From positions 1 through 37,736 of the IMG/VR virus record IMGVR_UViG_3300014887_000059: a stretch of DNA of 37,736 nt; one strand, given 5' to 3'. The notes under the pieces are model-generated. The model worked only from the letters and a program-made list of their open reading frames with translations. It did not search any database and was not told the DNA's origin. This stretch comes from a virus. Shown piece after piece: positions 484-26,823 of this stretch (positions are counted from its first letter, which is position 1; every line of letters begins with the position of its first letter). Position numbers and translations under genes: made by a program.

Positions 484-857
484 AGCAGTGGATGCGTGAC
501 GCAAGGGTGCAAATTGCGGTCGTTGAAAGGTTCAGTGCAGCTCATCATCTGCCTGGACACCCAAAGTGTGGCAAAGTGCATGGTCACAATTACAGGGTGA
601 TGGTCAAGTTACGAGCGCACATTTCGGAGCTCGGTGAAAACGGGATGTTAGCAGATTTTGGGAAAGTGAAGAAGACTCTGCGGAAGGTGCTTGTGAAGTA
701 TGACCATTCGGACTTGAACGAGAGGATTGAGGTGCCGACCGTCGAAAATCTAGCTATTCGTTTGTTAGTGGAAATGAGGCATTACTTCCCTCAAGTGTAT
801 GCAATCAAAATTTGGGAGACGGAGGACTCATGGTGCGAGGTCAGTCTGCCTGGTTAA
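480..857 (+). CDS. queD: 6-carboxy-5,6,7,8-tetrahydropterin synthase (QueD)
   Basis: QueD converts 7,8-dihydroneopterin triphosphate to 6-carboxytetrahydropterin, the second step of preQ0 synthesis from GTP. The 125-aa product has the usual family length and the PTPS-fold signatures. These are the zinc ligands in FSAAHHL (H22 or H23) and HGHNY (H34 and H36), the catalytic Cys in PKCGKVHGHN (C30), the DH pair in YDHSDLN (D75-H76), PTVEN and the late Glu in WETE (E113). AAGGAGG stands just before the ATG at 480. It begins a tight operon with queE, queC and folE2, so the product most likely feeds DNA modification by the DpdA-like enzyme encoded at 7666. All key residues appear intact. Confidence 0.93.
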   Translation: MKQWMRDARVQIAVVERFSAAHHLPGHPKCGKVHGHNYRVMVKLRAHISELGENGMLADFGKVKKTLRKVLVKYDHSDLNERIEVPTVENLAIRLLVEMRHYFPQVYAIKIWETEDSWCEVSLPG

Positions 858-1414
858 TTACAACCGGCTCTGGGGCTGCAGAGCCTGGGCGAGAAGCCCT
901 AGAAGCCCACACGCGTAAGCCGTGGGAACAGCCACGGGTTGAGAGAGACAGTAGTGAGATCGCCCGCTGCTGCAAGTTTTTGGGGCAAAAGATCAACAGG
1001 CTCTTCGTTAAGCGTCCCCTGGATGTGGTGATCATGTTAGATGGTGGAGTGTGGTTCGGTTTGGAAGTGCTGAAGTATGTTAAAAACGTGAGAGTACATT
1101 TTGCCAAAGCGCAATCGTACCGAGGTACTGAACCCGGACCTTTGCGTTGGGTCTTGATTCCTCAAGTAACGCCAGATGTAGTGTTTGACGACATTGCAGA
1201 CACAGGTGAAACGGTTCGGGCAATTAAGCAACTGTGGCCGACGTGTAAGGTGTGTACGCTGTTCAAGCGCTACAATTGCAAGTATCCTCCGGATTTGTAT
1301 GGGTTTGAGGTGCAGCACGACTATTTCCTTGTCGGGTTTGGGTTGGACTGGCATGGAACGCTACGCAACTTGTCGTCAGTGTACTACATTCAGGAGGAGA
1401 GCGATGGTAGTTAA
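830..1414 (+). CDS. HPRT-like purine phosphoribosyltransferase
   Basis: This is a type I phosphoribosyltransferase, which joins a purine base to PRPP to make a nucleotide. The PRPP-binding signature VVFDDIADTGETV (residues 117-129) is clear. The C-terminal block DYFLVGFGLDWHGTLRN resembles the HPRT C-terminal block that ends in a DYN-x-x-RNL type motif, and a central Ser-Tyr loop (KAQSYRGT, 93-100) is also present. I chose the ATG at 830, with GGAGG at 821-825, giving 194 aa; a TTG at 812 is less likely. The first 37 residues match nothing I know. The gene overlaps the end of queD and the start of queE, so it is co-translated with the preQ0 pathway. It may salvage guanine or hypoxanthine, or it may act on a deazapurine. 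Substrate choice cannot be read from the sequence. Confidence 0.8.
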   Translation: MVRGQSAWLITTGSGAAEPGREALEAHTRKPWEQPRVERDSSEIARCCKFLGQKINRLFVKRPLDVVIMLDGGVWFGLEVLKYVKNVRVHFAKAQSYRGTEPGPLRWVLIPQVTPDVVFDDIADTGETVRAIKQLWPTCKVCTLFKRYNCKYPPDLYGFEVQHDYFLVGFGLDWHGTLRNLSSVYYIQEESDGS

Positions 1415-2060
1415 TGAGATTTTTGTATCACTGCAAGGAGAGGGAAGGTATGTAGGCGAACCTTGTGTCTTTGTTCGCTTTGCCGGTTGCAACCTTCACT
1501 GTCCGTGGTGTGACTCCAAGTATGCATGGGAGGATGGATACTCAATGTCGCCAGAGTCCGTCTTTACGACTGCCGTACAGATGGGTTTAAGGCATGGATG
1601 TCGTTGGGTAGTGCTAACGGGCGGTGAGCCTCTTGCGCAAACGCACCAAGAGCTTATAGAGGTCATCGCGGCTGTTAGGGAGGAAGGACTGGATGTGCAG
1701 ATTGAAACTAACGGACTGTTGTGGGAGCCGTGGAGTGAGGTGCACTGGAATGTCAGTCCAAAGTTATGGTGTATAGATCGTTATCCGAAATTCCTTTGGG
1801 AGTACTGGTCGAAGTTCTCGAAGTTCGCGGACCTTGATTTAAAGTTTGTCGTCAAAACCGAAGACGACGTCACGGTCGTCAAACGTTTGGTTGAAACTTA
1901 CCAGTTCGACTTAAGTTGTGTGTACCTGATGCCTCAAGCAGCTAGCAGGGACGAGTATCTGTCTTTGGCACCGAAGGTATGGGAGTGGTGTACAAAATAC
2001 GGATACCGTTTCGGCACGAGAGAACACATTGTGTTGTTTGACCAAAGGAGGGGCGTATGA
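1404..2060 (+). CDS. queE: 7-carboxy-7-deazaguanine synthase (QueE), radical SAM
   Basis: QueE is a radical-SAM enzyme that contracts 6-carboxytetrahydropterin to 7-carboxy-7-deazaguanine. The 218-aa product starts MVVNEIFVSLQGEG, a typical QueE opening in which the substrate-binding QGEG is recognisable. The iron-sulfur cluster motif is C29-x3-C33-x2-C36, followed by DSKYAWE. LTGGEPL (71-77) is the SAM-binding GGE motif, and IETNG and NVSPK follow in the expected order. The ATG at 1404 is preceded by AGGAGGAG. A long in-frame extension upstream to 1185 is only the shadow of the HPRT gene. The enzyme is oxygen-sensitive, consistent with the anaerobic reductase encoded downstream. Confidence 0.94.
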   Translation: MVVNEIFVSLQGEGRYVGEPCVFVRFAGCNLHCPWCDSKYAWEDGYSMSPESVFTTAVQMGLRHGCRWVVLTGGEPLAQTHQELIEVIAAVREEGLDVQIETNGLLWEPWSEVHWNVSPKLWCIDRYPKFLWEYWSKFSKFADLDLKFVVKTEDDVTVVKRLVETYQFDLSCVYLMPQAASRDEYLSLAPKVWEWCTKYGYRFGTREHIVLFDQRRGV

Positions 2061-2677
2061 AGGCTTTAATTGGATTCAGTGGCGGCATCGACAGTTTGGC
2101 GTTAGCGTATCGTCTGACTCAGCTGGGCTACAATGTACATGGGGTGTACTTTCGGTATGGTCAACGGGATGAAGAGCTGAACAAGTACACAAGTTGGAGT
2201 TTGGCTCAGCAATTGGGCATGCCTTACCGGGAAGTTGTGTTGCCAAAGTTGAAGTCAAACGTGTTGACGGACGGAAGAGGGGGCATTCCGGAGACATGGA
2301 CGCCTCAGTATATCGTTCCATTCCGAAACGGTTTGTTCCTCGCGTTGCTGGCGGCAATGGCGGAGGGTGAAGGGTTCTCTGCAATCGGCTTGGGTGTACA
2401 TCGTTCAGATCAAGCATGGCCTGACTGCCTGCCCCAATTTTATGATATGTTTTCGAGGTTGCTAGGTCTTGCTCAATGTAACTTAAAGGTATTCACTAAT
2501 TTGCCGTTTGGAAAGAGTCAGCTTGTGAGGATGCTGTATGAAGCTGGGGAACCGTGGCGTTCGTTATTGTACCAAACACGGTCGTGTTATTTCACCGAAC
2601 CACCTTGCGGCAAATGCGTTGCGTGCCAAGAGCGTCGTAAGGCTTTTGAGGAGGTAGGCGTTCCGCTGGAGGGATAA
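2057..2677 (+). CDS. divergent QueC-like PP-loop enzyme
   Basis: This is an ATP-pyrophosphatase (PP-loop) protein of the QueC family, 206 aa, overlapping queE as ATGA. It keeps the PP-loop SGGIDS (8-13), VPFRNG (87-92), an Asp-Cys motif in WPDCLPQF, and four zinc cysteines (C177, C184, C187, C190). It departs from canonical QueC where the family usually has a Glu-x-Asp followed by YPDC: this protein reads GVHRSDQAWPDC. The stretch before the zinc site is also unusual, with LYQTRSCY in place of the typical LTWSCY. A second, more canonical QueC lies only 310 bases downstream. One of the two may therefore perform a different step, such as amidation or later tailoring of the deazaguanine. The family assignment is firm; the exact reaction is not. 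Confidence 0.85.
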   Translation: MKALIGFSGGIDSLALAYRLTQLGYNVHGVYFRYGQRDEELNKYTSWSLAQQLGMPYREVVLPKLKSNVLTDGRGGIPETWTPQYIVPFRNGLFLALLAAMAEGEGFSAIGLGVHRSDQAWPDCLPQFYDMFSRLLGLAQCNLKVFTNLPFGKSQLVRMLYEAGEPWRSLLYQTRSCYFTEPPCGKCVACQERRKAFEEVGVPLEG

Positions 2678-3054
2678 TGCGACAGTGGTTTGCGATCGCT
2701 TTGATTGTATTGTCGTGCTCAAAGGGCTCAGTGCCGGTGGACTCTCACTGGGTCTATGTAGGTTTGGTCAACAAAGTACAGTACTTTGAGCTGGTTGATT
2801 GTTTGGGAAAGAGTTACCCGATAACTGCACTACACACTTCACGGTCTGTCGTTCACATTTTGGGCTTCTACCAAATTAGTTTTGGTGCGAGGGTGTATGT
2901 GACGCAGCAGGGTGACTCACTTAAGGTTGAGTGGCAAGGACGTAGGGTAGTGTTTGACAAGTTTGTCTTAACGAAAGGAGGTACAGATGAAAGTCGTATG
3001 CCTGATGAGCGGCGGTCTCGACTCAACGGTAGCTGCGGCGTTAGCGATCCGTAA
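2677..3054 (+). CDS. small putative lipoprotein, 125 aa
   Basis: The product begins with a short hydrophobic signal and a lipobox, MRQWFAIALIVLSCSKGS, with the lipidated Cys at position 14. The mature part is beta-rich, for example HWVYVGLVNKVQYFELVDCLG. No catalytic motif is visible. The ATG overlaps the stop of the preceding queC-like gene as TAATG, and the 3' end overlaps the next queC by 68 bases. It is odd to find an exported lipoprotein inside a nucleotide-pathway operon. It may be a moron-type gene, for instance for superinfection exclusion as some phage lipoproteins are, but that is inference. The last 20 or so residues lie in the overlap and may be of little importance. Confidence 0.6.
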   Translation: MRQWFAIALIVLSCSKGSVPVDSHWVYVGLVNKVQYFELVDCLGKSYPITALHTSRSVVHILGFYQISFGARVYVTQQGDSLKVEWQGRRVVFDKFVLTKGGTDESRMPDERRSRLNGSCGVSDP

Positions 3055-3652
3055 GTATGGGGTAGATCAGGTGGCATCACTGCACATTTCGTACGGACAG
3101 CAGACGAGCTCGCGTGAACTTGAAGCGTGGTTGGATGTTTGCTCTGCTCTCAGGATTCCGCACTCGAACCGGTTTCATACAACTTTGCACCTTGAGCGAA
3201 GCTTTTCTGAGCTGACCAAGAGGAATGGAGACGTACGGTACGACCCTACGAAGAGGATACCCCAAACATATGTGCCATTTCGCAATGGTGTGGCGGCATC
3301 CGTTGCTGCACACTATGCGGACGGCTTGGGTGCCGATCTCGTTGTCATTGGAGTTCATGAGGCCGATTCTCGCTATCCAGACTGTAACCGCCAATTTGTG
3401 ATGTCTTTGAGCCGAGCGTTTAGTGAAGGAACTGCGCACAAAGTGCAACTTTGGGCACCACTCATCGACTATACCAAAGCAGAGATTGTGCAAGTCGGAG
3501 TTGAGATCGGTGCCCCACTGGAGCTTACGTGGAGTTGCTACGGAGACAACCGTTTGGCGTGCGGTGAATGCGAAAGCTGTATAACGCGTTACCGTGCGTT
3601 CAAAAAAGCCGGCTACATTGATCCGATACGATACAGGAGGGTGCCAGAATGA
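2987..3652 (+). CDS. queC: 7-cyano-7-deazaguanine (preQ0) synthase QueC
   Basis: QueC uses ATP and ammonia to turn 7-carboxy-7-deazaguanine, through an amide intermediate, into preQ0. The 221-aa product is canonical. It has the PP-loop SGGLDS (8-13), VPFRNG (96-101), GVHEADSRYPDCNRQF (122-137), KAEIVQVG, and LTWSCYG with four zinc cysteines (C184, C192, C195, C198). AAAGGAGGTACAG precedes the ATG at 2987, inside the 3' end of the lipoprotein gene. Together with folE2, queD and queE it completes a GTP-to-preQ0 route. No queF is present in the window, so conversion to preQ1 is not supported here. Confidence 0.92.
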   Translation: MKVVCLMSGGLDSTVAAALAIRKYGVDQVASLHISYGQQTSSRELEAWLDVCSALRIPHSNRFHTTLHLERSFSELTKRNGDVRYDPTKRIPQTYVPFRNGVAASVAAHYADGLGADLVVIGVHEADSRYPDCNRQFVMSLSRAFSEGTAHKVQLWAPLIDYTKAEIVQVGVEIGAPLELTWSCYGDNRLACGECESCITRYRAFKKAGYIDPIRYRRVPE

Positions 3653-4440
3653 TTCCAGATGTTCAGTCAGGTTCTTCTCGGATTCGCCAGTACTTGAAGA
3701 AGGTTGGAGTGCGTAATGTAGAGGTACCGCTAAAGTACGGAGTTGGTTCCTTCAGCGTTTATACAGATTTGGCTCCGGACGTAAGGGGTTCACATCTGTC
3801 GCGGTTGGTGGAGTTCGTAGAGCGTTTGTCTGGACAGGACTTGGACAGCCTGCCGCAGAGTGTAGACTCTATGATGAAGGATTTACGTGACTCGCTGAAG
3901 TGTGAGCTGGTGTATGTGAAGTGCCGCACGAAGTTTCCGTTTCGTGTTGCGGCGCCCCAAACATCTAGGGAAGGGTGGATGTACGCGAAAGTAACTCTCG
4001 ATATGGTTGGACGGCCGGACACTCCTACAGTTTGTGACTGGACTGTAGAGGTGCCGATCACAACTGCATGTCCATGTTCCTTGGAGTTAGTTCGTTTTTC
4101 TGGCAAGCAGGGGATTCCGCACAGCCAACGTGGGTTGGCGCGAGTGACTGTACGGACGTCGGTTGAGGAGACTGAGGTTGTTGCACGTCTGACTCAGCTG
4201 GTGCGGGACACAGTAGTAGCACCGTATCCCGTGCTGAAACGTGTGGACGAGCTCGAGTTCGCTTTAAAACTCCACAAAACGCCGATGTTTGTTGAGGATG
4301 CGGCACGTCTGTTGCATAACCGGCTCGACAAAGAGGATTGGGTTCAGGACTTTGTTGTAGTTGTTGAAACATTTGAGAGCATCCACCCGCACAACGCAGT
4401 AGCCGTTACGTGTAAGGGGGTTCAGTATGGGTTACGATGA
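3649..4440 (+). CDS. folE2: GTP cyclohydrolase FolE2 (type IB)
   Basis: FolE2 converts GTP to 7,8-dihydroneopterin triphosphate, the entry step of preQ0 synthesis, and often works with metals other than zinc. The 263-aa product has the family signatures in order: SVYTDLAPDVRGSHLSRL near residue 45, PITTACPCSLE with the catalytic Cys, HSQRG, FVEDAARLL, and the C-terminal ETFESIHPHNA. The start overlaps the stop of queC. It is not the more common FolE (type IA) that many 7-deazaguanine phages carry. No truncation or missing key residue is seen. It is probably expressed as one unit with queD, queE and queC. Confidence 0.92.
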   Translation: MIPDVQSGSSRIRQYLKKVGVRNVEVPLKYGVGSFSVYTDLAPDVRGSHLSRLVEFVERLSGQDLDSLPQSVDSMMKDLRDSLKCELVYVKCRTKFPFRVAAPQTSREGWMYAKVTLDMVGRPDTPTVCDWTVEVPITTACPCSLELVRFSGKQGIPHSQRGLARVTVRTSVEETEVVARLTQLVRDTVVAPYPVLKRVDELEFALKLHKTPMFVEDAARLLHNRLDKEDWVQDFVVVVETFESIHPHNAVAVTCKGVQYGLR

Positions 4441-4897
4441 TGAACAGTTCTACGTAGGAGAAGTATGGGAGGTTCCCAAAGTAATGGTGATGGTAGATCA
4501 GGTCGGGGCAAAGTTGCCTACAAAGGGTTACGCCGATGACGTTGGATGGGATTTGTACAGTCTTAAGTCAATCAAGTTGAAGCCACTTGAGATAGCGGAA
4601 GTACCTACCGGTTTGCGAATCTGTATTCCTGAAGGGTTCTACGCGCAAACCGCACCGCGCAGCAGCGGAGCCAAGAGAGGACTGATGCCTCTTTTGACGG
4701 TGTTCGACGCAGGCTACACTGGACCTTTGGCGCCGTTAGTCGTCAACCTGTCGAAAAAGACTTTGAAGATTGAAGAGGGAGAAAAATTTTGTCAGCTGAT
4801 CATAGGTGCAGTCATTCCGGTCAAGTGGGAGTTAGTTGACTTACTCCCTGAAACTCAAAGAGGTGCAAAACGTTATGGTTCGACGGGGAGGCGATGA
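4427..4897 (+). CDS. dut: dUTPase (trimeric, Dut family)
   Basis: The enzyme hydrolyses dUTP to dUMP and pyrophosphate, keeping uracil out of DNA and supplying dUMP. The 156-aa product shows all five trimeric dUTPase motifs: DDVGWDLYS (motif 1), PRSSGAKRGL (2), VFDAGYTGPLAP (3), EKFCQLII (4) and the C-terminal RGAKRYGSTGR (5). Motif 2 carries the nucleophile-orienting Ser, and motif 3 has the catalytic Asp. The start is taken at 4427 behind GGGGG, overlapping the end of folE2. It overlaps the polymerase gene, whose product has its own uracil-recognition domain, so both genes deal with uracil in phage DNA. Confidence 0.93.
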   Translation: MGYDDEQFYVGEVWEVPKVMVMVDQVGAKLPTKGYADDVGWDLYSLKSIKLKPLEIAEVPTGLRICIPEGFYAQTAPRSSGAKRGLMPLLTVFDAGYTGPLAPLVVNLSKKTLKIEEGEKFCQLIIGAVIPVKWELVDLLPETQRGAKRYGSTGRR

Positions 4898-7182
4898 TGT
4901 ACCTTAGCCAGTGCAAAAGTTGTCCACTGTACCAAAAAGAAAGACCTATCCCAGGCAGGTGGTCAAACCCGCCTAGCGAACCTGGGCAGATGATGTTTGT
5001 AGCCGAGTCTCCCGGACCCGAAGAAGTCAAGCAGGGGAAGGTACTCATTGGTCCAAGTGGTCAATGTTTGAGCTATTGGATTCGTAAGGTCGGGATCGCG
5101 TGTGGAGTTTACCTTACGAACGTAAGCAAGTGTCCGGCCAAGGGTAACACGTTAGGGGTGACCGCAGACAAATGCTTCCCATGGTTGTTACGCGAAATAC
5201 ATATTTACAAACCAAAGGTTGTAGTCGCTCTAGGAGCGGTGTCTGCTTCGGCTTTGTTGGGGTCGCAGGTTAAGATTACCGAGCAAAGAGGAAAGGTGTT
5301 TGACTTAGGTTCTTTCAAGCTTGTTTTGACTATACACCCAGCGTACATACTTCGAAACTGGGAAGAGACGCCTTTGTTTGTTCGGGATCTCCAAATTGCA
5401 TGGGAAGTATACCAAGGGAAGGAAATTGAAGTAAGAGAACCTGAGGTACGTATCATCAGGGACCCAGGCAAGCTGTTGCGTGTGTTACAGGACTTGCCAG
5501 AAGTAGTGTCTTTGGACGTAGAAACGACTGGATTCGACTGGACAAGGGATAAGTTAGTGTCTTGTGCGGTGGCAGTGAGCTCGGACGTAGTGTACGCGTT
5601 TCCGTGGGACATCGTAGACGTCGAAACGTTCCGCGACGCTTTGTGTAGAAGGAAGTTAGTAATGCATAACGCGTCCTTTGACACTAACTTCCTTTACGCA
5701 AATGGAGTGGATGTACTCGACCAGGTGTACTATGACACGATGGTGGCTGCGCACTTGTTAGAGGAAAACGTTTCGGCATCCTTGACTACTGCTGGATCTT
5801 TGTTCTGTGACGTACAGATGGATCTTTCTTACGAGGCGCAGTTCAAAAAAGGAATACGATGGAAGGACCTGAAGGACAGCGACGAGCTTCTGACGTACAA
5901 CGCGAAGGATGCTGTTCTGACTTTCAGAGTATACGAAGCAACGCAGAGGAGGTTGCAAGAGCAAGGGCTCAACTCGTTGTTTGACTTTCAGATGTACTTG
6001 GTTCGTACGTTGACTAGGGTCGAGAGGAGAGGGGTTCTGATCGACGTTGCAAGGCTGGAGGAGCTTGACAGACAGGTAGCGTTGCAGCTTGACGCTCTCA
6101 AGCAGCGGATGTTTGACATTGCAGGACACGAGTTTAACGTGAACTCTCCTGCACAGTTGTCAAAAATCCTGTACGAGCATCTGAAGCTTCCGGTACTCAA
6201 TAGAACGCCAACTGGCAACCCCTCAACGAACGTCGCAACCTTAGAAAAGCTTGCACCTCAATCAGAGTTCGTGCGTCTCCTGTTGGACTATCGGAAACTT
6301 GTGAAGGTAAAGTCTACTTTCTTAGGCGGAAGCGAAGGGGATAAGGGGCTCAAGCGGTACATTGCTACGGACGGAAGGGTTCACACTAGTTTCAATATTG
6401 CTGGAACCGTTACGGGGAGGTTATCTTCTTCACGTCCAAACCTCCAGCAAATTCCTGAGCGCGGTCCAGTCAATGTACGGGAGATCTTTGTGGCCCCTGA
6501 AGGTTGGAAGCTGATAGTTGCCGACTTCGATCGGGCGGAGCTGTACTGTGCAGCTTACTACGCGAGGGACGCTTTGCTGCACTCGAACTTACGTCAGGAG
6601 GACTTTCACAGGTACACAGCGTCGCGCATTTTCAGAAAACCGATGGAGGAGGTAACGGACGACGAAAGGTTCGCTGCCAAGACCATCACGTTTGGAATTT
6701 TGTATGGACGCGGTCCGTCGTCGATCGCTGAGCAACTGGACATAAGTACGAGCGAAGCACGTCAGCTGTTATACAAATTCTTTGACACCTATAAGGATTT
6801 AGCTGTTTGGACTCGGAGGATTAAGGAGATTGTTAGGTCTTTCGGACAGCTTCGAAATATCTTCGGAAGACGTCGTAGGTTCTGGGGCACTCAGTTTGCG
6901 CTTCCTGCAGTACGTGCAGCGATCGAAAGGCAGGCGCTAAACTTTTTGCCCCAGTCGACGGCCTCTGACATGTGCTGCGCTGCAGCCGTTGACATTGACA
7001 TCGAGTTTCGTAGGAGGGGCATGCGTTCGGGTATTGTACTGTTGGTGCACGACTCGATCGTCGTCGAGTCGCCTGAGGAAGAGGTCGAGGAGGCTGCAGC
7101 GATCGTCAAGTCGTGTATGGAGAAGCCAAGAAAAGGTTTGCAGATTCCAGTACACGTTGAGGTTGGACGGAGGTGGGCGTAA
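4894..7182 (+). CDS. DNA polymerase A with N-terminal family-4 UDG domain and 3'-5' exonuclease
   Basis: This 762-aa replicative polymerase has three domains. Residues 1-175 resemble a family-4 (iron-sulfur) uracil-DNA glycosylase, with four candidate cluster cysteines (C7, C10, C80, C94), a motif-A-like AESPGPEEVKQGK and a HPAYILR motif near 148. Residues 200-370 are a DnaQ-like exonuclease with DVETTG (D208, E210), HNASFDTNFL (D263) and YNAKDA (D339). Residues 370-762 are a family A polymerase. Motif A is VADFDRAELY (D544, E549). Motif B has K596 and F600, ending FGILYG. Motif C is LLVHDSIVVE (D720), where Ser replaces the usual Glu of HDE. Phage SPO1 polymerase is a known case of a UDG-like N-terminus. 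Whether the glycosylase is active cannot be told by eye. Confidence 0.93.
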   Translation: MMYLSQCKSCPLYQKERPIPGRWSNPPSEPGQMMFVAESPGPEEVKQGKVLIGPSGQCLSYWIRKVGIACGVYLTNVSKCPAKGNTLGVTADKCFPWLLREIHIYKPKVVVALGAVSASALLGSQVKITEQRGKVFDLGSFKLVLTIHPAYILRNWEETPLFVRDLQIAWEVYQGKEIEVREPEVRIIRDPGKLLRVLQDLPEVVSLDVETTGFDWTRDKLVSCAVAVSSDVVYAFPWDIVDVETFRDALCRRKLVMHNASFDTNFLYANGVDVLDQVYYDTMVAAHLLEENVSASLTTAGSLFCDVQMDLSYEAQFKKGIRWKDLKDSDELLTYNAKDAVLTFRVYEATQRRLQEQGLNSLFDFQMYLVRTLTRVERRGVLIDVARLEELDRQVALQLDALKQRMFDIAGHEFNVNSPAQLSKILYEHLKLPVLNRTPTGNPSTNVATLEKLAPQSEFVRLLLDYRKLVKVKSTFLGGSEGDKGLKRYIATDGRVHTSFNIAGTVTGRLSSSRPNLQQIPERGPVNVREIFVAPEGWKLIVADFDRAELYCAAYYARDALLHSNLRQEDFHRYTASRIFRKPMEEVTDDERFAAKTITFGILYGRGPSSIAEQLDISTSEARQLLYKFFDTYKDLAVWTRRIKEIVRSFGQLRNIFGRRRRFWGTQFALPAVRAAIERQALNFLPQSTASDMCCAAAVDIDIEFRRRGMRSGIVLLVHDSIVVESPEEEVEEAAAIVKSCMEKPRKGLQIPVHVEVGRRWA

Positions 7183-7685
7183 TGTTTAATGTCGCGTTCA
7201 TTGGCAGTCATAGAGTAGGTAAGACAACGCTGGCTGAACGAGTTTACCAGACCTTGAAGGTTGACTACCCCGATCTAGTTCTGATCAGTAGACTCCACGA
7301 AGACAAGATCACCGAATTCGACCGTGCAGAGGACATAGATGTGTGGGCCGCAAAAAGTTATCTGGAGGCGTTCGAGGAAGCAAATTGGCATTTTGTGGCA
7401 GATCGTAGTGCCATCGACCCGGTCGGATATGCTTTGGCAAACGACAATTCGAAAGTGTATGAGCAAGTAGTTTGGCTGGCACTCCAGGCTGCGTCGCGCA
7501 TACGTTTTCTCATTTACGTACCTATCACTTTCCACGCAGCCAAAGACTTCAAGTACCAAAAGTTGGTGGATCGCAAAATTTTGGAGTTCCTCGATTACCA
7601 CAAAATCCCTTACTACACTGTCAAGTGTTTAGGAGTCGATGACCGTACAGAGGAGGTACTGAACCATGTTTACTCGCAAGTCTAA
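7182..7685 (+). CDS. P-loop NTPase, nucleotide-kinase-like (AAA_28 type)
   Basis: The product of 167 aa begins MFNVAFIGSHRVGKTT, a Walker A motif at the very N-terminus. It then has FVADRSAIDPVGYAL, which resembles the DRS-type motif of AAA_28 (NadR-kinase-like) proteins common in phages. Such proteins phosphorylate nucleosides or small ligands, but the substrate here is unknown. The ATG at 7182 forms TAATG with the polymerase stop; a GTG at 7173 is less likely. Its last 20 bases overlap the start of the DpdA-like gene, so the two are probably translationally coupled. A role in deoxynucleotide or modified-base metabolism is plausible but inferred from position only. Confidence 0.75.
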   Translation: MFNVAFIGSHRVGKTTLAERVYQTLKVDYPDLVLISRLHEDKITEFDRAEDIDVWAAKSYLEAFEEANWHFVADRSAIDPVGYALANDNSKVYEQVVWLALQAASRIRFLIYVPITFHAAKDFKYQKLVDRKILEFLDYHKIPYYTVKCLGVDDRTEEVLNHVYSQV

Positions 7686-8406
7686 AGTACAGTGGTGCTT
7701 CAACCGCCCACTCAAATACCTGCTCGAGTGGGATGTCGACGACTTTAAGTTTATCGAAGGTTATGTAGCTTTGCAGTCACCGTTACTGTCTCGCTTTGCC
7801 GAACTGGACACTCTCAAAGTCGTCGACAATTCCGCCTACCTACTGGGCAAGCCGATTGACGTTGAGGACTTGTGTTATGTTGCGGAACGTGTTAAGGCCG
7901 ACATCGTAATTGCACCCGACGTGTTGTTCAGCGCAGAAGCGACTCTTGAGAGTACGGAGCACTTTCTGTACCTCGTAGAAGACAAACCGTTTGATGTCAT
8001 GGGAGTAGTTCAGGGCAGCAGCGTTCGCGAACGATGTCAATGTGTCCGTACATTGCTAGAGTTAGGGTTACGGGTCATCGGCATCCCTTACATTCAACCG
8101 TCCGGAAGTTTGGAAGAAAAAGCTGTATGGAGGCAGAAGGTCGTCGAGTTCGTCCGGTCGGAGTCTGACTGTCACATACATCTGCTCGGGCTGTGTAGTC
8201 CCAAACTGGAGTTGCCCTATCTGGGCCACATTGGGGGCACGGTAACTGTCGACACCGGCCTGCCGTACGTGAATGCAAGACACAAGGTGAACCGTTTGGA
8301 AAAGTTGTCGCATACTTCGGCGGTGGATTTAATGGACGAACGGATTGCTGCGTGGCAGCGTCAGATTTTTGACGATTTAGTACAGCAACTCAAGGAGGGG
8401 GTATGA
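7666..8406 (+). CDS. dpdA: DpdA-like DNA-guanine transglycosylase (TGT fold)
   Basis: DpdA enzymes are relatives of tRNA-guanine transglycosylase that exchange guanine in DNA for a 7-deazaguanine such as preQ0. The 246-aa product reads as a short TIM-barrel protein. Candidate catalytic aspartates are in KVVDNSAYLLG (D54) and in VTVDTGLP (D196), the positions expected for the two TGT aspartates. APDVL (83-87), VVQGSS (114-119) and HLLGL (172-176) are further TGT or DpdA-like blocks. I do not see the CxCxxC zinc site of tRNA TGTs. The length fits the small phage DpdA group. An operon with all four preQ0 genes makes DNA modification the likely role. It ends in an ATGA overlap with nrdD. Confidence 0.83.
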   Translation: MFTRKSKVQWCFNRPLKYLLEWDVDDFKFIEGYVALQSPLLSRFAELDTLKVVDNSAYLLGKPIDVEDLCYVAERVKADIVIAPDVLFSAEATLESTEHFLYLVEDKPFDVMGVVQGSSVRERCQCVRTLLELGLRVIGIPYIQPSGSLEEKAVWRQKVVEFVRSESDCHIHLLGLCSPKLELPYLGHIGGTVTVDTGLPYVNARHKVNRLEKLSHTSAVDLMDERIAAWQRQIFDDLVQQLKEGV

Positions 8407-15608: not shown

Positions 15609-16388
15609 ATGAGAACTTTTGTTCTGGTTACCGGTCACAAAGGGGTCGGGAAGGATGCGTTCGCAAGCTTCCTGTGTGTATGCCTACCGTCGTCGACCCA
15701 CTTTAGCATTTCAAGCTACGTGCACAAAGCTGTAGCGACGCTTCTAGGGGTTTCCGAAGACTGGGTCAGACTTTTTAAGGATAAAGAGGTTGTGCAAGTA
15801 GCAGGAAAGGAAGTGACGATTCGGGAGTTGCTGCAGCGGCTAGGAACAGAGGTTGGACGTCATATGTTTGGTCCCGAGTGCTGGCTACGTATGTTGTATG
15901 AAGACATTGCAGAAAGTTCTGAGCGTTTTGTAGTAGTTACGGGCATACGTTTTGTGAACGAGGTTGAGTTTTTCAAAGCAAGAGGGCACACAGTCGTATG
16001 TGAGATACGCAGGCCGGGTTACGAAGGCGACGGTCATGTTTCTGAAAAGGGATTGGATGAGTCCTTGGTGGACTTTGTAGTGAACAACGGCGGAACGATA
16101 GAAGATCTCAGGGAGCAAGCACGTCAGATAGCCAGAAAAGTCCGCAGATCACGTTTGGTCGAGCTTTTGGCTGACCTGGAGCACCAACAATGGGAGTTTT
16201 GGAGTAAAGCGATTGCAAGCCATTTGACTACGTCTGGGAACATTGAAGAGGCCTTACAGAAAAAGGTAGAAAGATGGAAAACGTTGTGGGTTCCTTACAC
16301 GCAGTTGAGCGAAAAAGAAAAGGACTCTGATCGTGTTTGGGCTGAAAAAGTTCTGCAAGCAATCGAGTCGGAGGTGGATTTGCTATGA
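15609..16388 (+). CDS. deoxynucleoside monophosphate kinase with C-terminal RyR-like domain
   Basis: The N-terminal part (1-175) resembles phage dNMP kinases, with the Walker A FVLVTGHKGVGKDAFA, a substrate-side region around LGTEVGRHMFGPECW and VVTGIRFVNEVEFF. It would phosphorylate dNMPs for the polymerase. Residues 180-259 form a second domain with LLADLEHQQWEFWSKA and RWKTLWVPYTQLSEKEKD. This Trp-rich helical pattern is common in phage proteins and is similar to the RyR domain, whose role there is not established. AAGGAGGTAG lies directly before ATG 15609. A kinase acting on an unusual nucleotide is possible, but the deazaguanine here is expected to enter at the DNA level through DpdA. 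Confidence 0.8.
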   Translation: MRTFVLVTGHKGVGKDAFASFLCVCLPSSTHFSISSYVHKAVATLLGVSEDWVRLFKDKEVVQVAGKEVTIRELLQRLGTEVGRHMFGPECWLRMLYEDIAESSERFVVVTGIRFVNEVEFFKARGHTVVCEIRRPGYEGDGHVSEKGLDESLVDFVVNNGGTIEDLREQARQIARKVRRSRLVELLADLEHQQWEFWSKAIASHLTTSGNIEEALQKKVERWKTLWVPYTQLSEKEKDSDRVWAEKVLQAIESEVDLL

Positions 16389-17923: not shown

Positions 17924-18310
17924 TCAAACTTTTCGAAATACTCTTCCGCCCAAGACGAGAAAGTCTCCTGTGACTTCGTAAGATAAAGCGTACGACCCTC
18001 CAACGAAGTTCCGGTCAGGACAGTCCGTCACAAAAAAGAAAATCTTACCCTTCGAAACGGAAAACTCACCGCTTTCCCACCATGTATTTTGACCTGTCTC
18101 CTTCGCGTTAATCTGCAAAGTGTATGTGCCATCGACCTTGAATGTGAACTCCCAAATGTAGTGGTACTCGTACATTCGACCACTACGCAAAACGGTTTTG
18201 ACTTGAATGGCTCTCCACTTACCACATAACATATCTTCCGGCTTAAGGATTCTGTTAGAGCCGCACGCTACAAACATCAAAAACGGTAGGATGTACGCAA
18301 GTCTATTCAT
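17924..18310 (-). CDS. putative lipoprotein with lipocalin-like fold, 128 aa
   Basis: The product begins MNRLAYILPFLMFVACGSN, a signal peptide with lipobox and a lipidated Cys at position 16. The mature part has the alternating-strand pattern of small lipocalin-like lipoproteins: LCGKWRAIQVKTV, a strand YHYIWEFTFKVDGTYTLQ, then WWESGEFSVSKGKIFFF. The ATG at 18310 has GGAGGTGAAC upstream; the in-frame extension to 18343 overlaps the kelch gene. It is the second phage-encoded lipoprotein in the window. A surface-exclusion or envelope role is possible, and a virion role is less likely because it carries an export signal. Confidence 0.65.
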   Translation of the reverse strand: MNRLAYILPFLMFVACGSNRILKPEDMLCGKWRAIQVKTVLRSGRMYEYHYIWEFTFKVDGTYTLQINAKETGQNTWWESGEFSVSKGKIFFFVTDCPDRNFVGGSYALSYEVTGDFLVLGGRVFRKV

Positions 18311-18312
18311 GT

Positions 18313-20892
18313 TCACCTCCAAATCCCATAAACTCTCCACCAAGTCCTTTTTCTCCCAATCGGTGCGCGACGTATCTGTAGCTCGAGGCTGTCTCCAATT
18401 AGGACAGTGTCGTAATCCGGTTTCTGAATTCTGAACAGTAGTGAGTCCGTAGGAACTTCGTCGTCGGCAAGTGTGAACGTCAAGGTTTTGCTCAGTAAGT
18501 CTTGGAGCAGTACTTGTTCAGCTGGGCTACACTCCGGCGTTCCTTCCCAACTGTCATTAACGTACAGACTTTCGTAAACGTCAGCATGCTTTGCAGGCCT
18601 TTGTTCTGTCTGAAGTGTCTCAGCAGGCTCCAAATCTTCGTACAGGTCTTGAGTCAGTGATGAAGCGCGGTCGTACAAATTGACATACTCAGCAAGCTGC
18701 TTGAGCCACTTAAAGTATTGCTTAACCTTGTCATATACGGTTACAGAATCGGAGATCTTAACTATGTATGATGCAACGTGAACGGCGTCACTACTTGTCA
18801 ACTCGTCAGATACTTCAAGTAGAGGTCCTTTTGACACTTGGTCTGTTACGTTCAAAACGTCGTCGAGGTCTACCGTAGGTAAAGTACGGGAGACAGTGTC
18901 GGAGGCGTAGACGTTGTCTCCGACTGGGTAAATTTGACTGATGTAGATTTCAATCTGCTCCTGCAGTTGACACTGGTCAGTTGCCGGAACATTGGAAGTT
19001 GTCAGCTCTTCTTCAAACTCAGTTACATCCTCAGGGTAGAGGACGTTTGTTTGAAGCTGGTCGGACAGGGTGACTTCGTCGGCAGACAGACTTCTGAGTG
19101 ATGCAACGACTTCGTCGACCGAAATAATGTCGTAAATCGGGCGTTCGAATTGCACTAGGTCTGTAACCTGTAAGATTTCTTCGACATATTCTTGCACACG
19201 GCGGCACGTTACAGAGTCAGTAACTGTAAGAGACTCTTGAACGAGAGGATTCGCCCAGTTTCGTACTGCATCGTACAGAGTGACTCCGTCTTCATTGAGT
19301 TTGACGTTGAGGTCCAACGAGTCGTTCAGTGCAGCACTGTCTGCCGTTGACGTCTGCCACCGGAACAGTAAGGCGAGACCATGCTGAAGTGTAACGTAGC
19401 TGTCGACCTGCCGTCCATACCGAAGTTCAGTTTCGGTCGTTTCGCTGACAAAAACGGATTCACCGATCTCCAAGATATATGTAGTGTGAAACTCGGATTT
19501 GAGCTCTATTGCTTGAGTTAGTGTTGCAGTGTCACTGCAATCTCGAACCCTAAAGACTCGGATCTGTTCTTGAGTTTGTAGGGTTTCTGACAGATCGATG
19601 CCCAGACCCGAGGACAAAGTTACGGTGTGTAACGTTGGAGTGGTGGAAGACTTAAGTTCAACGTCTTCAGAAAAGGTGATGACATCGGTCGTTTCACGTA
19701 AACGGAAGCAGCCTACCGTCTCTTCCAACAGTACGCAATCATCGAGCCTTAGCGGCACTGGAATACGGGAGACTTGTTCAACAAGTTCAAGGGTTTCGTA
19801 AACTGAAAGGGAACTCTGCCAGTTTAAACCATCCTGAAGGGTAACCTGGTCCAATACGGAGTACGGAGAGGTTGCAACGACGTCTGAAGACTCTAGCGTG
19901 TCGTCGACGTTTATCGTAATCTCAACTGGTTCAACCTCTCCAAACTCTGTTACTCCAACTTCGCGAAGCGCTGAAGGTAGGTTTGTGATGGACGTCCACG
20001 TATCCGTACTGTCATCAAACTTTTCACTTTCTGCAATAACGATGCGAGTAGAATCAGTTAAACTATGTCCTCCGAACACGTAAATGAGACCACTTTCTGT
20101 GCCGGAGGCAGTGGCAGCTCTTGCGGTAGGCATCGATGCTCTGCTTGTCCAACTGTCTTCTGACCACCTGTTGTTTTGGGTACCGGCCTGCCACTTTCCA
20201 AAGTTAAAAAAGTGGTCTCCTGTTGTACTTCCGCCAATTCGGTACTCTCCACCGACGGGGTCGTCGGCTTTTGACGTCCATGAGTTAGAGCTCCAAACGT
20301 ACTTGTAGTGACTGGATTCAGATGACGATGTATAACCTGCGGATTTGTGCGCAGCAGCGTTTGTTTGATATCCTCCACCAACGTTTCTGGAGGCAACAGG
20401 TACGTTGGCTCTCGTTTCCCAAGTTTCCGAGTCAAAGTTCCATGCTTTGCAGTAGGAAACATTGGATTTGTTGGCTTTATCGTAACCATTAAAGATCAGT
20501 CCGCGTGGCACGTCTGATAGGGATGCAGAGCCTACTGCGTGATATGCGCCAGCACCGGAAAGTGAAGTCCACGTGTTGGAGGCGGAGTCATATTTGTAAT
20601 GATTGTTTTGTGACTCTCCGGAAGCATTGTAGCCTTGACAGAAGTGAACTTTAGAGGAGTTTTCTTTGAAGCTGCCTAGATACGTGGACGCTTGAGGGAG
20701 GCTAGCAAGAGAAGTATATGAGTTTGTTGAGGGCGTGTACTTGTGAGCTGCATCAGTAGCGTTCCAACTCAACGCGCTAGGGTTGCCGCCAGCGACGACG
20801 ATTTCAGGGTCCGCTGCAGCACTTCCTAACAACGTACCGACGGCAACGACAGCAACGTGAACAACATCTTTCAGTGTGACTTTGTCGCCCAT
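18313..20892 (-). CDS. tail fibre-like kelch-propeller protein A, 859 aa
   Basis: Residues 30-315 form six kelch-type blades at about 48-residue spacing. The Gly-rich turns include AGGNPS, CQGYNA, FNGYDK, SAGYTS and FGGHSL, followed by Trp-containing strands such as SNTWTSL. Before them is a short hydrophobic N-terminus (VVHVAVVAVGTLLG). From about 320 to 840 the chain is a long run of short acidic beta repeats with the pattern V-x-L-x-D-x-V or L-x-V-x-D. The C-terminus is basic and aromatic (GRKRTWWRVYGIWR). GGAGGGACA precedes ATG 20892. The propeller closely resembles that of the fibre at 22893, so the two are paralogues. A receptor-binding or fibre role is likely but not proven. Confidence 0.75.
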   Translation of the reverse strand: MGDKVTLKDVVHVAVVAVGTLLGSAAADPEIVVAGGNPSALSWNATDAAHKYTPSTNSYTSLASLPQASTYLGSFKENSSKVHFCQGYNASGESQNNHYKYDSASNTWTSLSGAGAYHAVGSASLSDVPRGLIFNGYDKANKSNVSYCKAWNFDSETWETRANVPVASRNVGGGYQTNAAAHKSAGYTSSSESSHYKYVWSSNSWTSKADDPVGGEYRIGGSTTGDHFFNFGKWQAGTQNNRWSEDSWTSRASMPTARAATASGTESGLIYVFGGHSLTDSTRIVIAESEKFDDSTDTWTSITNLPSALREVGVTEFGEVEPVEITINVDDTLESSDVVATSPYSVLDQVTLQDGLNWQSSLSVYETLELVEQVSRIPVPLRLDDCVLLEETVGCFRLRETTDVITFSEDVELKSSTTPTLHTVTLSSGLGIDLSETLQTQEQIRVFRVRDCSDTATLTQAIELKSEFHTTYILEIGESVFVSETTETELRYGRQVDSYVTLQHGLALLFRWQTSTADSAALNDSLDLNVKLNEDGVTLYDAVRNWANPLVQESLTVTDSVTCRRVQEYVEEILQVTDLVQFERPIYDIISVDEVVASLRSLSADEVTLSDQLQTNVLYPEDVTEFEEELTTSNVPATDQCQLQEQIEIYISQIYPVGDNVYASDTVSRTLPTVDLDDVLNVTDQVSKGPLLEVSDELTSSDAVHVASYIVKISDSVTVYDKVKQYFKWLKQLAEYVNLYDRASSLTQDLYEDLEPAETLQTEQRPAKHADVYESLYVNDSWEGTPECSPAEQVLLQDLLSKTLTFTLADDEVPTDSLLFRIQKPDYDTVLIGDSLELQIRRAPIGRKRTWWRVYGIWR

Positions 20893-20902
20893 TGTCCCTC
20901 CG

Positions 20903-22243
20903 TTACGTTGTTTGCCTCAGCGTGGCACGGAACTGAACGTATCTACACTGTAGTTCGCTAGGAACTTGCTGTCCGTTTTCAACCTCCCACCATGTAATGC
21001 CTGCAGTACCCCATACTGGGTCGGAGTCGTTCGGTAACTCAAGGTTACTCCACGGGTCACCGTTTTTGTCGGTTTGCGGTGGAGTCGACGAGGCTCTAAC
21101 ACTAATTGTTTTTGGAGGTCCCGAAACGGTGTCAACTTCCGTCCCGTACGGTTCGGTTGCCTCCCATTGGACTTTGTATAGCAGCTGGTTTTCTCCCAAG
21201 TCGATAACCCCCGAAGTAAAGGTTCCTTCGCTGGCGTAGCTGCCGGGAACACCTGCAAGTTCAACATGCATATCTTCCCAGGTTCCTTCAACTTCAGTGT
21301 CGTTTAGGGGGTCCGTTTCGCTTGGACCGAATTCGTTCCAAAGGATATCGAAGTTTTCGCCGCCTACTTTTAACGTTCCGGCGTGCCACCCGTAGATTCT
21401 GACGTAGTTCATCGCTATGGGAGCTCCGCATGCGCTCGGAACTGCGGTCTTGTTTGACCACGAGTTACTAGTAAGGTCGTACCTCGCATGCTCAGTCCCG
21501 TTGTACTTACAAAATGAATCAACGGAATTAAGTTTGACTAATGTCATGGCACTCGACCAGTCTACAGACGTAGTCGTCGCTTTTGACGACCATGTGTTGG
21601 AGTCCATGTTGTAAAGTTTTGTCACGCTACCTATACTGAACAAGCCTTTTCTACTGTAGATTCCTGAACTGTTTCTAACAGTCGCAGCATGCCCTGTATT
21701 AGCAAGCTGCACCCAACTACCTGTGGTTTCGTCAAACTTGTAAGCGTCTTGTTTAGAACCGTATCCATCATTTCCCGCAAAAGCGATAAAGCACGGAATG
21801 GCAAAAGAGCCTGCCCTAAAGCGTTTTCCAGGAGGATAGACGGGTTCAGTGCTCCACGTGTTCGTTGCCGATACGAACTTGTGATGTGAATTTACTATAG
21901 CGGTATCTGACCTGCCGCAAGCTACACGACTTTGAGGATTTTCTGACTTGGACGTCGCATCAAATTTACTTTCAGGGTGGCTCTTCCGACTCACATGAGT
22001 CCAGGTACTCAAATTCCAGCATCGATGCCAGTTAACTGGATCTTGGCTAGAGTCTTTGAAACCACATACCTGAGACACTCGATAATCGGATTCAAACATC
22101 GCAGCACTCGCTCCAAAGCTACTGTTAAAATCGTAGCTGAACTTCTGCGTAAAGGAGTCCGCCGAGGGGTTGTAATCCCATGCGTAGGTGTGTTCGTGTT
22201 CTTCACTTCCAGAAACTACACAAGGACTCACCCAGTTCGCCAT
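20903..22243 (-). CDS. kelch-propeller tail protein B with C-terminal jelly-roll domain, 446 aa
   Basis: Six kelch-like blades fill residues 1-290, for example VVSGSEEHEHTYAWDYN, ACGRSDTAIVNSHHKF, FAGNDGYGSKQDAYKFD and FCKYNGTEHARYDL. Each is followed by a strand such as TGSWVQL or SNSWSNK. The blades are clearly different in sequence from those of proteins A and C. The rest looks like a beta-sandwich of the kind found after propellers, with GTFTSGVIDLG, a KVQWEATEPYGT strand and a C-terminal CRYVQFRATL. The ATG at 22243 has GAGGTG nearby. The gene ends 11 bases before the ATG of protein A, so the two are co-translated neighbours. Confidence 0.72.
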   Translation of the reverse strand: MANWVSPCVVSGSEEHEHTYAWDYNPSADSFTQKFSYDFNSSFGASAAMFESDYRVSQVCGFKDSSQDPVNWHRCWNLSTWTHVSRKSHPESKFDATSKSENPQSRVACGRSDTAIVNSHHKFVSATNTWSTEPVYPPGKRFRAGSFAIPCFIAFAGNDGYGSKQDAYKFDETTGSWVQLANTGHAATVRNSSGIYSRKGLFSIGSVTKLYNMDSNTWSSKATTTSVDWSSAMTLVKLNSVDSFCKYNGTEHARYDLTSNSWSNKTAVPSACGAPIAMNYVRIYGWHAGTLKVGGENFDILWNEFGPSETDPLNDTEVEGTWEDMHVELAGVPGSYASEGTFTSGVIDLGENQLLYKVQWEATEPYGTEVDTVSGPPKTISVRASSTPPQTDKNGDPWSNLELPNDSDPVWGTAGITWWEVENGQQVPSELQCRYVQFRATLRQTT

Positions 22244-22303
22244 AGTTTCGCACCTCACGCTATTGTAAAGGACGTCTTCAACGCCTCAACTGAGTCGGAC
22301 TGA

Positions 22304-22714
22304 TTACGACACGGTCACAGTCCACTTCACGATTAGTGTGTCGCCGCTATTAAGTGCCACGTCGGCTATATTGTACTCGGCGTACTCCGACGTCAGCAGA
22401 GTCGCGCCAGCGGCAACGCCAAGCTTCACTTCGGTGATGGTGACCGTCTCGGAAGCGGTATAGTCCGCCCTCCAGCGGATCCAGTTTTCGCTTCCAGTCC
22501 CTCCACCATCGATCGTTGTAGGCTGGCTGTTACCCCAACCCGTGTCCTGGCGCTTGAAGTCGATAGCGTCGACCGCAGTGAAGGTCGTGTGACCTAAGGC
22601 GTAAGCCATTTCCTGCTTCATCTTGTCCAGGATGGTGTTAGGACCTTCCCAGCGGTCAACGACCTCGCCGTTAGGACGTACGTGCATCCATTCTACTTTG
22701 CCCTTGAGCTCCAT
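22304..22714 (-). CDS. small beta-rich virion-like protein, 136 aa (paralogue 1)
   Basis: The product starts MELKGKVEWMHVRPNGEV. It ends in three beta-strand blocks: WIRWRADYTASETVTITEVK, LGVAAGATLL, then GDTLIVKWTVTVS. It is a clear paralogue of the protein at 25725-26105, sharing VDAID or VDAVD, the LGV turn and the closing GD-x-V-x-W-x-V-T pattern. The ATG at 22714 is preceded by GGGGAGGTGAAAAGA, which is better than the GTG at 22723. It lies after a kelch fibre gene and before another. I do not know its family; it may be a fibre-attached or decoration protein. Confidence 0.68.
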   Translation of the reverse strand: MELKGKVEWMHVRPNGEVVDRWEGPNTILDKMKQEMAYALGHTTFTAVDAIDFKRQDTGWGNSQPTTIDGGGTGSENWIRWRADYTASETVTITEVKLGVAAGATLLTSEYAEYNIADVALNSGDTLIVKWTVTVS

Positions 22715-22844
22715 TCTTTTCACCTCCCCTTACAACTTGTAAGGTTACTGGACCATCTTGAATGGTATACGAATTGGAGGTGGCCTCTCTACGTTTGACC
22801 ACCTGCAGCTGAACTATTTCACCTAAGGACGTACGTTCGTGCAT
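22671..22844 (-). CDS. hypothetical small protein, 57 aa
   Basis: The ATG at 22844 follows AAAAGGAGGTGAGACT, one of the best ribosome binding sites in the window. The product starts MHERTSLGEIVQLQVVKR, continues with YTIQDGPVTLQVVRGG, and stops at 22671, overlapping the next gene by 44 bases. It is polar and beta-leaning, with no motif I recognise. The final 17 residues are in the overlap. A candidate promoter lies just upstream (22862-22890), so this may be the first gene of a separately transcribed section. Confidence 0.5.
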   Translation of the reverse strand: MHERTSLGEIVQLQVVKRREATSNSYTIQDGPVTLQVVRGGEKNGAQGQSRMDARTS

Positions 22845-22861
22845 AGTCTCACCTCCTTTTT

Positions 22862-22890
22862 AATTTAAAAGTTTAAGGGTTCTATATCAA
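22862..22890 (-). promoter_or_regulatory. candidate sigma-70-type promoter upstream of the 57-aa gene
   Basis: In a 48-base AT-rich gap between two - strand genes, TTGATA (complement of 22885-22890) is followed after exactly 17 bases by TAAATT (complement of 22862-22867). This matches the -35 consensus at five of six bases and the -10 at four of six. Most other junctions in this operon are overlaps without such an AT-rich gap. The assignment is by consensus only. Confidence 0.4.
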
Positions 22891-22892
22891 GC

Positions 22893-25721: not shown

Positions 25722-25724
25722 CCC

Positions 25725-26105
25725 TCATGTCGCTGTGATTTTCCATTCTACAGTAACGACGTCGCCTTCGTTTGCAACAATTGCCTCGACTTCAACTTCC
25801 GAGTACACTTTTGCAAGAAACGATCCACCTTTCACCCCAAGCCTTGCAGCAGTGATAATGGTCGGACTGTCTACAATCCATGACGTTCTCCACAGAGCGT
25901 AATTGACGGATCCATCGCCGCCCTCAACCAGTGCGATGTCTCTAGCGTGGCCCCAACTGTCTTCAATGTACAGGTCAACGGCGTCGACGGCATCCATACT
26001 ACCATTGCCTGCCGCGCGCATCAGCTGCTTGTTGAACTCCTCAGTGAGTGTGTTCGCTCTCCTTACCTCCGTCCCGTTCACTTTGAAGCAAACGCAACCT
26101 TGCAT
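25725..26105 (-). CDS. small beta-rich virion-like protein, 126 aa (paralogue 2)
   Basis: The product starts MQGCVCFKVNGTEVRR and is a paralogue of the 136-aa protein at 22304. Shared features are AVDAVDLY (AVDAIDF in the other), an ALWRTSW strand, ARLGVKGG (VKLGVAAG), and the closing GDVVTVEWKITAT. The ATG at 26105 follows GGAGGAGACACCCC, and the first 65 bases overlap the coiled-coil gene. It is placed directly before the long kelch fibre C, as its paralogue is placed before proteins B and A. The repeated arrangement suggests that this small protein works with kelch fibres, perhaps as an adaptor or chaperone, but no activity can be read. Confidence 0.68.
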   Translation of the reverse strand: MQGCVCFKVNGTEVRRANTLTEEFNKQLMRAAGNGSMDAVDAVDLYIEDSWGHARDIALVEGGDGSVNYALWRTSWIVDSPTIITAARLGVKGGSFLAKVYSEVEVEAIVANEGDVVTVEWKITAT

Positions 26106-26814
26106 GGGGTGTCTCCTCCAACTGTTTGACGTTACGGTCCGTCCGCAAACTGGCTTCAAGTGCGTCTCTAAGCACCTGTTTCAGGTCTTGAGACGTTTGC
26201 ATTAGTCGAGCGAGGAGCTGACGTTCTTCTTCAATGTAAGGAGGTAAAGGCATTCCAGGGTCGTATTTGCGTCTCATCAGTACTCGCGCATACCAGTTGA
26301 AGGGCTCTGCATCTTCGTGGTGCTCGAACACTCGCTGACGTTTAGCTACTCGGTACGCATCCAGAAAGGCCTTCGCTTCGTAGGAAGTATCTTTAATCTG
26401 CCTCAATACAAATGGAATGCGGCGTTGAGCTTGCTCTGCCTTTTCGCGCTCGAGTTGCGCCTTTAACTTCAACTCCTGTCTTTCTAGTTCGTCTGTACTG
26501 TTCGATGCAGCACGTTCATACTTCTTTTGTTTGACCGTGTGCAACTCTGCTTTGATCCTCAGCTGACGCAACTCACTCTCTAGACCGGCCAGGCTGTCAA
26601 ACCGTCCAATAAGCTCCCTCAAGCACTGATGCCAGACTGAGTCTGGCGTAGGAAACTCGACAGGGTTCAACACGAACTTGTGGATTTGGTACCGGCTCAT
26701 CCCCGACTGGAGTTCGGTGAATAAGTCATGAAGCAGCTCCTTGAGTTCATTGTCGTCTTCCACTAGTCTCTTTACAGCTTCCGGTACCTCCGTAGGAATG
26801 AGTTTTTCGTTCAT
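26041..26814 (-). CDS. hypothetical coiled-coil protein, 257 aa
   Basis: I do not recognise this protein. GGAGGGTGCG lies before ATG 26814. The product is almost entirely helical and charged, with a strong coiled-coil between about 75 and 135 (ELRQLRIKAELHTVKQKKYE, then ELERQELKLKAQLEREKAE). Its helices near 180 contain the WYARVLMRRKYDPGMPLPPY segment. It has no signal or membrane segment. Position among tail genes suggests an assembly or baseplate-related protein. The last 21 codons overlap the next gene. Confidence 0.65.
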   Translation of the reverse strand: MNEKLIPTEVPEAVKRLVEDDNELKELLHDLFTELQSGMSRYQIHKFVLNPVEFPTPDSVWHQCLRELIGRFDSLAGLESELRQLRIKAELHTVKQKKYERAASNSTDELERQELKLKAQLEREKAEQAQRRIPFVLRQIKDTSYEAKAFLDAYRVAKRQRVFEHHEDAEPFNWYARVLMRRKYDPGMPLPPYIEEERQLLARLMQTSQDLKQVLRDALEASLRTDRNVKQLEETPHARLRLLQSERDGGKESEHTH

Positions 26815-26823
26815 CGCACCCTC

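Follow-up and report, generated by a model that had tools for sequence, protein, structure and literature searches.

We identified two different QueC-family genes in one phage operon: a canonical queC and a paralogue that, from its kept and changed residues, probably encodes an active enzyme that depends on ATP and has a changed substrate pocket. The operon opens the plus strand of an IMG/VR virus record of 37,736 bases (hereafter the window, meaning the whole stretch analysed), and the record may be incomplete. Functional divergence of the paralogue is the likeliest reading. We estimate a probability of roughly 0.4 that the protein acts on the CDG/ADG side of the 7-deazaguanine pathway and yields a 7-substituted base other than preQ0.

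The operon includes plus-strand genes for QueD (6-carboxytetrahydropterin synthase, 480–857; Pfam accession PF01242, E 4.6e-28; phrog_2389, QueD-like), QueE (radical SAM CDG synthase, 1404–2060; phrog_2076, QueE-like, E 1.4e-48; Pfam accession PF04055), the QueC-family paralogue (2057–2677), canonical QueC (preQ0 synthase, 2987–3652), and a FolE2-type GTP cyclohydrolase (GCYH-IB, 3649–4440; Pfam accession PF02649, E 1.4e-56). Further downstream, it contains a dUTPase gene (4427–4897), a DNA polymerase ORF, a kinase gene, a gene for a DpdA-like protein, and a ribonucleotide reductase ORF that begins at 8403. Successive operon genes overlap or abut, a strong Shine-Dalgarno sequence precedes most of them, and GC content by codon position is uniform. 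No tRNA gene was found in the window.

The candidate DpdA-type DNA guanine transglycosylase (7666–8406, plus strand) scores weakly against DpdA models, under the NCBIfam cut-off (NF041059, E 6.7e-5). It can be aligned with 25 DpdA-like phage proteins, all encoded on viral contigs that carry QueC and in most cases also QueE or PolA. The residues common to these 25 proteins (D54, D85, Q116, G139, H172, and D196) are kept, and TGT-type catalytic residues are present. In the predicted pathway, FolE2, QueD, and QueE would make CDG from GTP, canonical QueC would make preQ0, and DpdA would swap a 7-deazaguanine into phage DNA. By gene content and established pathway logic (PMC6884629), this putative route from GTP to 7-deazaguanine in DNA is complete with canonical QueC alone, the candidate DpdA supplying its last step. 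The first-pass annotation had held canonical QueC to be enough for preQ0, and the complete preQ0 gene set bears this out. A second QueC is thus not needed for preQ0.

A gene for a 6-oxopurine (HGPRT-type) phosphoribosyltransferase (830–1414, plus strand; TIGR01203 HGPRTase, E 1.3e-15; DDIADTG and GFGLDW motifs) sits between queD and queE. Its product possibly salvages guanine released by DpdA or participates in deazaguanine nucleotide synthesis. At 80 viral QueC loci, no relative of this gene lies near QueC, and its matches in the phage collection fall in records that are unannotated or bacterial-looking. FolE2 relatives are likewise absent near QueC (0 of 80 viral loci), and FolE2 matches in the phage collection are confined to three records, all unannotated. 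Elsewhere, the window encodes a T4-type deoxynucleotide monophosphate kinase (15609–16388; Pfam accession PF21448, E 5e-18). A nucleotide route for a modified base through this kinase, the phosphoribosyltransferase, and the ribonucleotide reductase is conceivable.

Both queC reading frames are open and intact and match PF06508, in agreement with the earlier proposal of two QueC-family genes. The paralogue (206 amino acids) and canonical QueC (221 amino acids) share 32% identity. Both are preceded by a strong Shine-Dalgarno sequence (aaaggagggg and aaaggaggt, respectively) and show the same GC content by codon position as neighboring genes, and the paralogue start overlaps the queE stop (ATGA). 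The paralogue (PF06508, E 9e-35; model pLDDT 91.3) reaches 120.5 bits against a curated PF06508 cut-off of 22, while its TIGR00364 score of 92.4 bits lies below the QueC equivalog cut-off of 150.3. Canonical QueC (PF06508, E 3.7e-55; TIGR00364, 157.6 bits) is the only copy that passes this NCBIfam cut-off and keeps 45 of 45 conserved positions. Between the two genes lies a small lipoprotein-like ORF (2677–3054, plus strand; LSC lipobox read from sequence) with no match in Pfam, PHROGs, NCBIfam, or PADLOC. A second small lipoprotein-like ORF with no family match is located on the minus strand (17924–18343).

We compared the paralogue with QueC loci collected by conserved patterns (80 viral and 80 cellular), with seven annotated phage loci, and with 60 chromosomal QueC loci added through pattern-free searches with a profile or a protein. 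Invariance was counted over 227 other sequences, including Cap9, three Gat-QueC proteins, and the Bacillus subtilis and Pectobacterium QueC. The two window proteins and two degenerate second copies from other viruses (loci L087 and L088, described below) were left out. We rejected a tally of lost conserved positions as a gauge of divergence, as B. subtilis and Pectobacterium QueC themselves lose 10–12 positions defined by the pattern-selected set.

Of the columns that are at least 95% conserved, 31 hold a residue in the paralogue and 28 of these are kept, whereas ordinary columns are barely kept. This pattern suggests selection for the catalytic site. Kept features include the ATP-binding PP-loop (SGGIDS, residues 8–13, 2078–2095), VPFRN (residues 87–91, 2315–2329), both pocket aspartates (Asp118 and Asp123), Lys153, and the SCY(x)5CxxCxxC zinc-binding region with its C(x)6C spacing (2582–2626), all on the plus strand. 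The first-pass annotation had likewise noted the PP-loop and the zinc cysteines, of which four of four are present. Retention of the ATP loop, VPFRN, the base-recognising aspartate, SCY, and the zinc cysteines argues that the paralogue is probably active.

The few exceptions lie mostly on the substrate side. First, Asn42 (2180–2182), the last residue of YGQRDEELN (residues 34–42, 2156–2182, plus strand), takes the place of the YxQxHxxE glutamate, which all 225 other sequences aligned at this site have. The histidine of this motif corresponds to Asp38 in the paralogue, and the canonical form (cluster 1, PMC13329287) is not matched. Predicted structures support the register, with Asn42 and QueC Glu44 each the fourth residue of the helix that follows YGQ. 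Second, Trp121, in WPDC (residues 121–124, 2417–2428, plus strand), replaces the base-stacking tyrosine of YPDC, a residue common to all 221 other sequences aligned there. Finally, Tyr85 replaces a threonine, and the C-terminal DPxxY tail common in the collected set is missing. The collection pattern permitted tryptophan at the YPDC tyrosine and the 60 chromosomal sequences were picked independently of the motif, so the invariance of this tyrosine is not a selection effect.

Both positions have been connected to the substrate site. In Escherichia coli QueC, the opening of the pocket is lined by YxQxHxxE, and substitution of the YPDC tyrosine gives an inactive (Y131A) or partly active (Y131F) enzyme (PMC13329287). 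In Cap9, the equivalent tyrosine stacks on the base, and an aspartate reads its Watson-Crick edge (PMC13279940).

The first-pass annotation had based divergence on other features, namely an arginine where QueC usually has glutamate and an altered approach to the zinc site. The first of these does not distinguish the paralogue. The Arg116 position (2402–2404, plus strand) is variable in ordinary QueC, which has Ala, Ser, Glu, Val, Lys, or Arg there. Counts are Ala 89, Ser 31, Glu 14, Gly 8, Lys 4, and Arg 4 among 171 aligned sequences and Ala 17, Val 6, Ile 4, and Glu 3 among 30 Pseudomonadota; glutamate dominates only in the Bacteroidota sample (25 of 30). Arginine also occurs at this column in chromosomal QueC, with three cases from Succinivibrionaceae-type genomes in which the gene adjoins queD and queE. 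The zinc approach is indeed shorter, with C(x)6C rather than C(x)7–8C, but two viral QueC (L017 and L034) have the same spacing. Canonical cluster 1 QueC has C(x)8CxxCxxC; the paralogue has all four cysteines, and their spacing varies in ordinary QueC. Because the arginine and the spacing both occur in ordinary QueC, neither is evidence of divergence. The claim of an extra QueC paralogue with substrate-side changes thus stands in altered form, with changes beyond those first cited: Asn42 and Trp121 now carry the argument. The first-pass annotation had also put forward three chemistries (arrest at the amide, addition to the nitrile, or action on DNA-bound base), and the analysis does not favor one over another.

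The paralogue could alternatively be a redundant second preQ0 synthase, arising from a queC gene that was acquired or duplicated and is now drifting while catalyzing the same reaction, perhaps for more flux. Equivalents of the essential E. coli QueC residues Y35, R99, and Y189 (PMC13329287) are kept, the Y131 equivalent is still aromatic, and the fold is indistinguishable from that of QueC. Moreover, Glu39 or Glu40 might stand in for the lost glutamate, and tryptophan can stack as tyrosine does, which would weigh against a changed product. Drift fits poorly with the loss of two never-varying positions while the ATP and zinc sites are kept, and the score under the equivalog cut-off also argues against redundancy. 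We consider redundancy possible but doubtful.

Phylogeny and structure do not separate the copies further. The tree proposed as a check on the two proteins neither joins nor separates them, and long branches dominate. The paralogue branch (2.87, versus 1.72 for canonical QueC) is among the longest and fits a changed function. A topology in which the two copies are sisters was not rejected (p-AU 0.57), and the pair may have arisen by duplication inside the phage or by two separate acquisitions. Fold comparison was uninformative: both copies superpose on Cap9 slightly better than on QueC, and the paralogue is not separated from plain QueC.

Among characterized proteins, canonical QueC (B. subtilis, 3bl5; Pectobacterium, 2pg3) has the fold, SGGxDS, VPxRN, PDC, SCY, zinc cysteines, and queE neighbor in common with the paralogue. 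It differs in having glutamate at the Asn42 site, tyrosine at the Trp121 site, a longer zinc loop, and a score above the equivalog cut-off. The purine-salvage QueC-like proteins of PF06508 cluster 4 are defined by YGQ(x)6E and CH(x)5CxxCxGCxK; the paralogue lacks this glutamate and has CY(x)5CGKCVAC.

Gat-QueC functions in dG+ synthesis in phages 9g and Vid5; like the paralogue, it has a QueC domain and is encoded beside DpdA in an operon for 7-deazaguanine. In BFVD, the paralogue is matched best by a Gat-QueC-type protein (TM 0.85, normalized by query length) from Pantoea phage Vid5, whose DNA carries dG+ (PMC8306585). These likenesses raise the possibility of an archaeosine-type synthase that converts preQ0 to G+ with free ammonia, and the separate canonical QueC would supply its preQ0. 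Gat-QueC has an N-terminal class II glutamine amidotransferase domain, which the paralogue lacks: its PP-loop begins at residue 8, and Pfam returns only QueC and weak PP-loop matches. The three aligned Gat-QueC proteins have YPDN and GNN and keep the invariant glutamate and tyrosine, whereas the paralogue has WPDC and GVH, and its Gat-QueC PHROG score is far under its QueC PHROG score. An archaeosine-type activity is thus improbable.

Cap9 of type IV CBASS (9nto) resembles the paralogue in its small QueC fold, truncated C-terminus, and ATP and zinc sites. It is also the best structural match of the paralogue (Z 22.5, 176 residues, rmsd 1.9), and it too lacks a glutamate at the variable site and the DPxxY tail. 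By this analogy, the paralogue would ligate CDG to an amine on a phage or host protein, either its N-terminal glycine or a different one. We rejected the structural lean towards Cap9 as evidence, since canonical QueC, used as a control, behaves alike (Cap9 best, Z 24.7). Cap9 also keeps the invariant glutamate and tyrosine that the paralogue has lost, and its Y/FxQ(x)5E and H(x)4YxDCxxxF motifs are not matched (Asn42 and H(x)5WPDC in the paralogue). The Cap9 gene adjoins that of a CD-NTase, but a PADLOC scan of the operon and neighboring proteins returned no CBASS model besides the QueC profile itself. Nor did we find a partner with an N-terminal glycine: no MGGS or MGTS N-terminus is present, and the only genes with both an ATG-GG start and a Shine-Dalgarno-like site encode the dUTPase (4427–4897, plus strand; an N-terminal extension beginning MGYDDEQF), a gp32-like protein, and a kelch protein. 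On the minus strand at 18313–32939, a region that looks like tail genes encodes several large kelch-repeat-like paralogues. A Cap9-like ligase is very improbable.

QatC of the qatABCD system (9y01; Z 16.4 against the paralogue) has the QueC core in common with the paralogue. It is approximately 400 amino acids long with N- and C-terminal extensions that the 206-residue paralogue lacks, and it has threonine residues at the PDC aspartate, which the paralogue keeps. The paralogue has no QatC model match. Judged by defining sequence features, the paralogue is not a Gat-QueC, Cap9, or QatC protein, and the Cap9-like and archaeosine-type readings fail on the features that define those families.

A second QueC gene is rare in viruses. 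Whole-record searches of 80 QueC-bearing viral records revealed it in only one other lineage (records G078 and G079, loci L087 and L088), and our literature search found no paper on a second phage QueC. In that lineage, a degenerate QueC-like gene (6678–7367 in each locus) lies in tandem with queC in a phage queDE cluster. Its product has lost the ATP loop (SGGxDS) and YPDC while keeping the zinc site, and it is likely a non-catalytic QueC. This example indicates that a virus can retain a QueC-like protein that is not catalytic, and the paralogue could similarly be a partner subunit that alters or regulates canonical QueC in a mixed complex, with no product of its own. The paralogue, unlike the degenerate copy, keeps a full ATP site, and such a role is unlikely.

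The canonical QueC query matched 314 places in 312 records of the annotated phage collection. Two spaced patterns found no viral QueC with WPDC in IMG/VR (a match in L171 was rejected as chance), and no relative with a conserved Asn/Trp pair was found there. Single-protein queries with the paralogue, QueC, PolA, and the phosphoribosyltransferase also identified no close phage relatives in IMG/VR. The single record returned by the ribonucleotide reductase query (L170) was rejected, as it has no QueC, and alignment query A1 was too divergent for scanning.

The kept core, the pocket rebuilt at two otherwise universal positions, and the preQ0 step already covered by canonical QueC make a product other than preQ0 most likely. 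We propose that the paralogue, a QueC-fold enzyme, works in the same pathway and uses ATP: it would bind a 7-deazaguanine (CDG, ADG, or preQ0) and activate the C7 group of this base with ATP. The product might be the amide (ADG), an N-substituted amide, or an amidine. We infer this activity, its substrate and product, and its order relative to DpdA from the genes, the fold, and the kept and lost residues. A more specific version, which we regard as unlikely, is that the paralogue represents a new kind of QueC. It would couple CDG with some amine besides ammonia, or else halt at the amide or nitrile or add a group to it.

If this new-kind reading is true, the phage would contain a 7-deazaguanine not yet described in DNA, and the paralogue is a lead to such an undescribed base. 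QueC folds have recently been found in defence protein tagging (Cap9 and perhaps QatC). A plain QueC and a pocket-altered QueC in one phage provide a paired system for how this fold changes its product, in which exchange of the YxQxHxxE glutamate and the YPDC tyrosine might convert one activity into the other.
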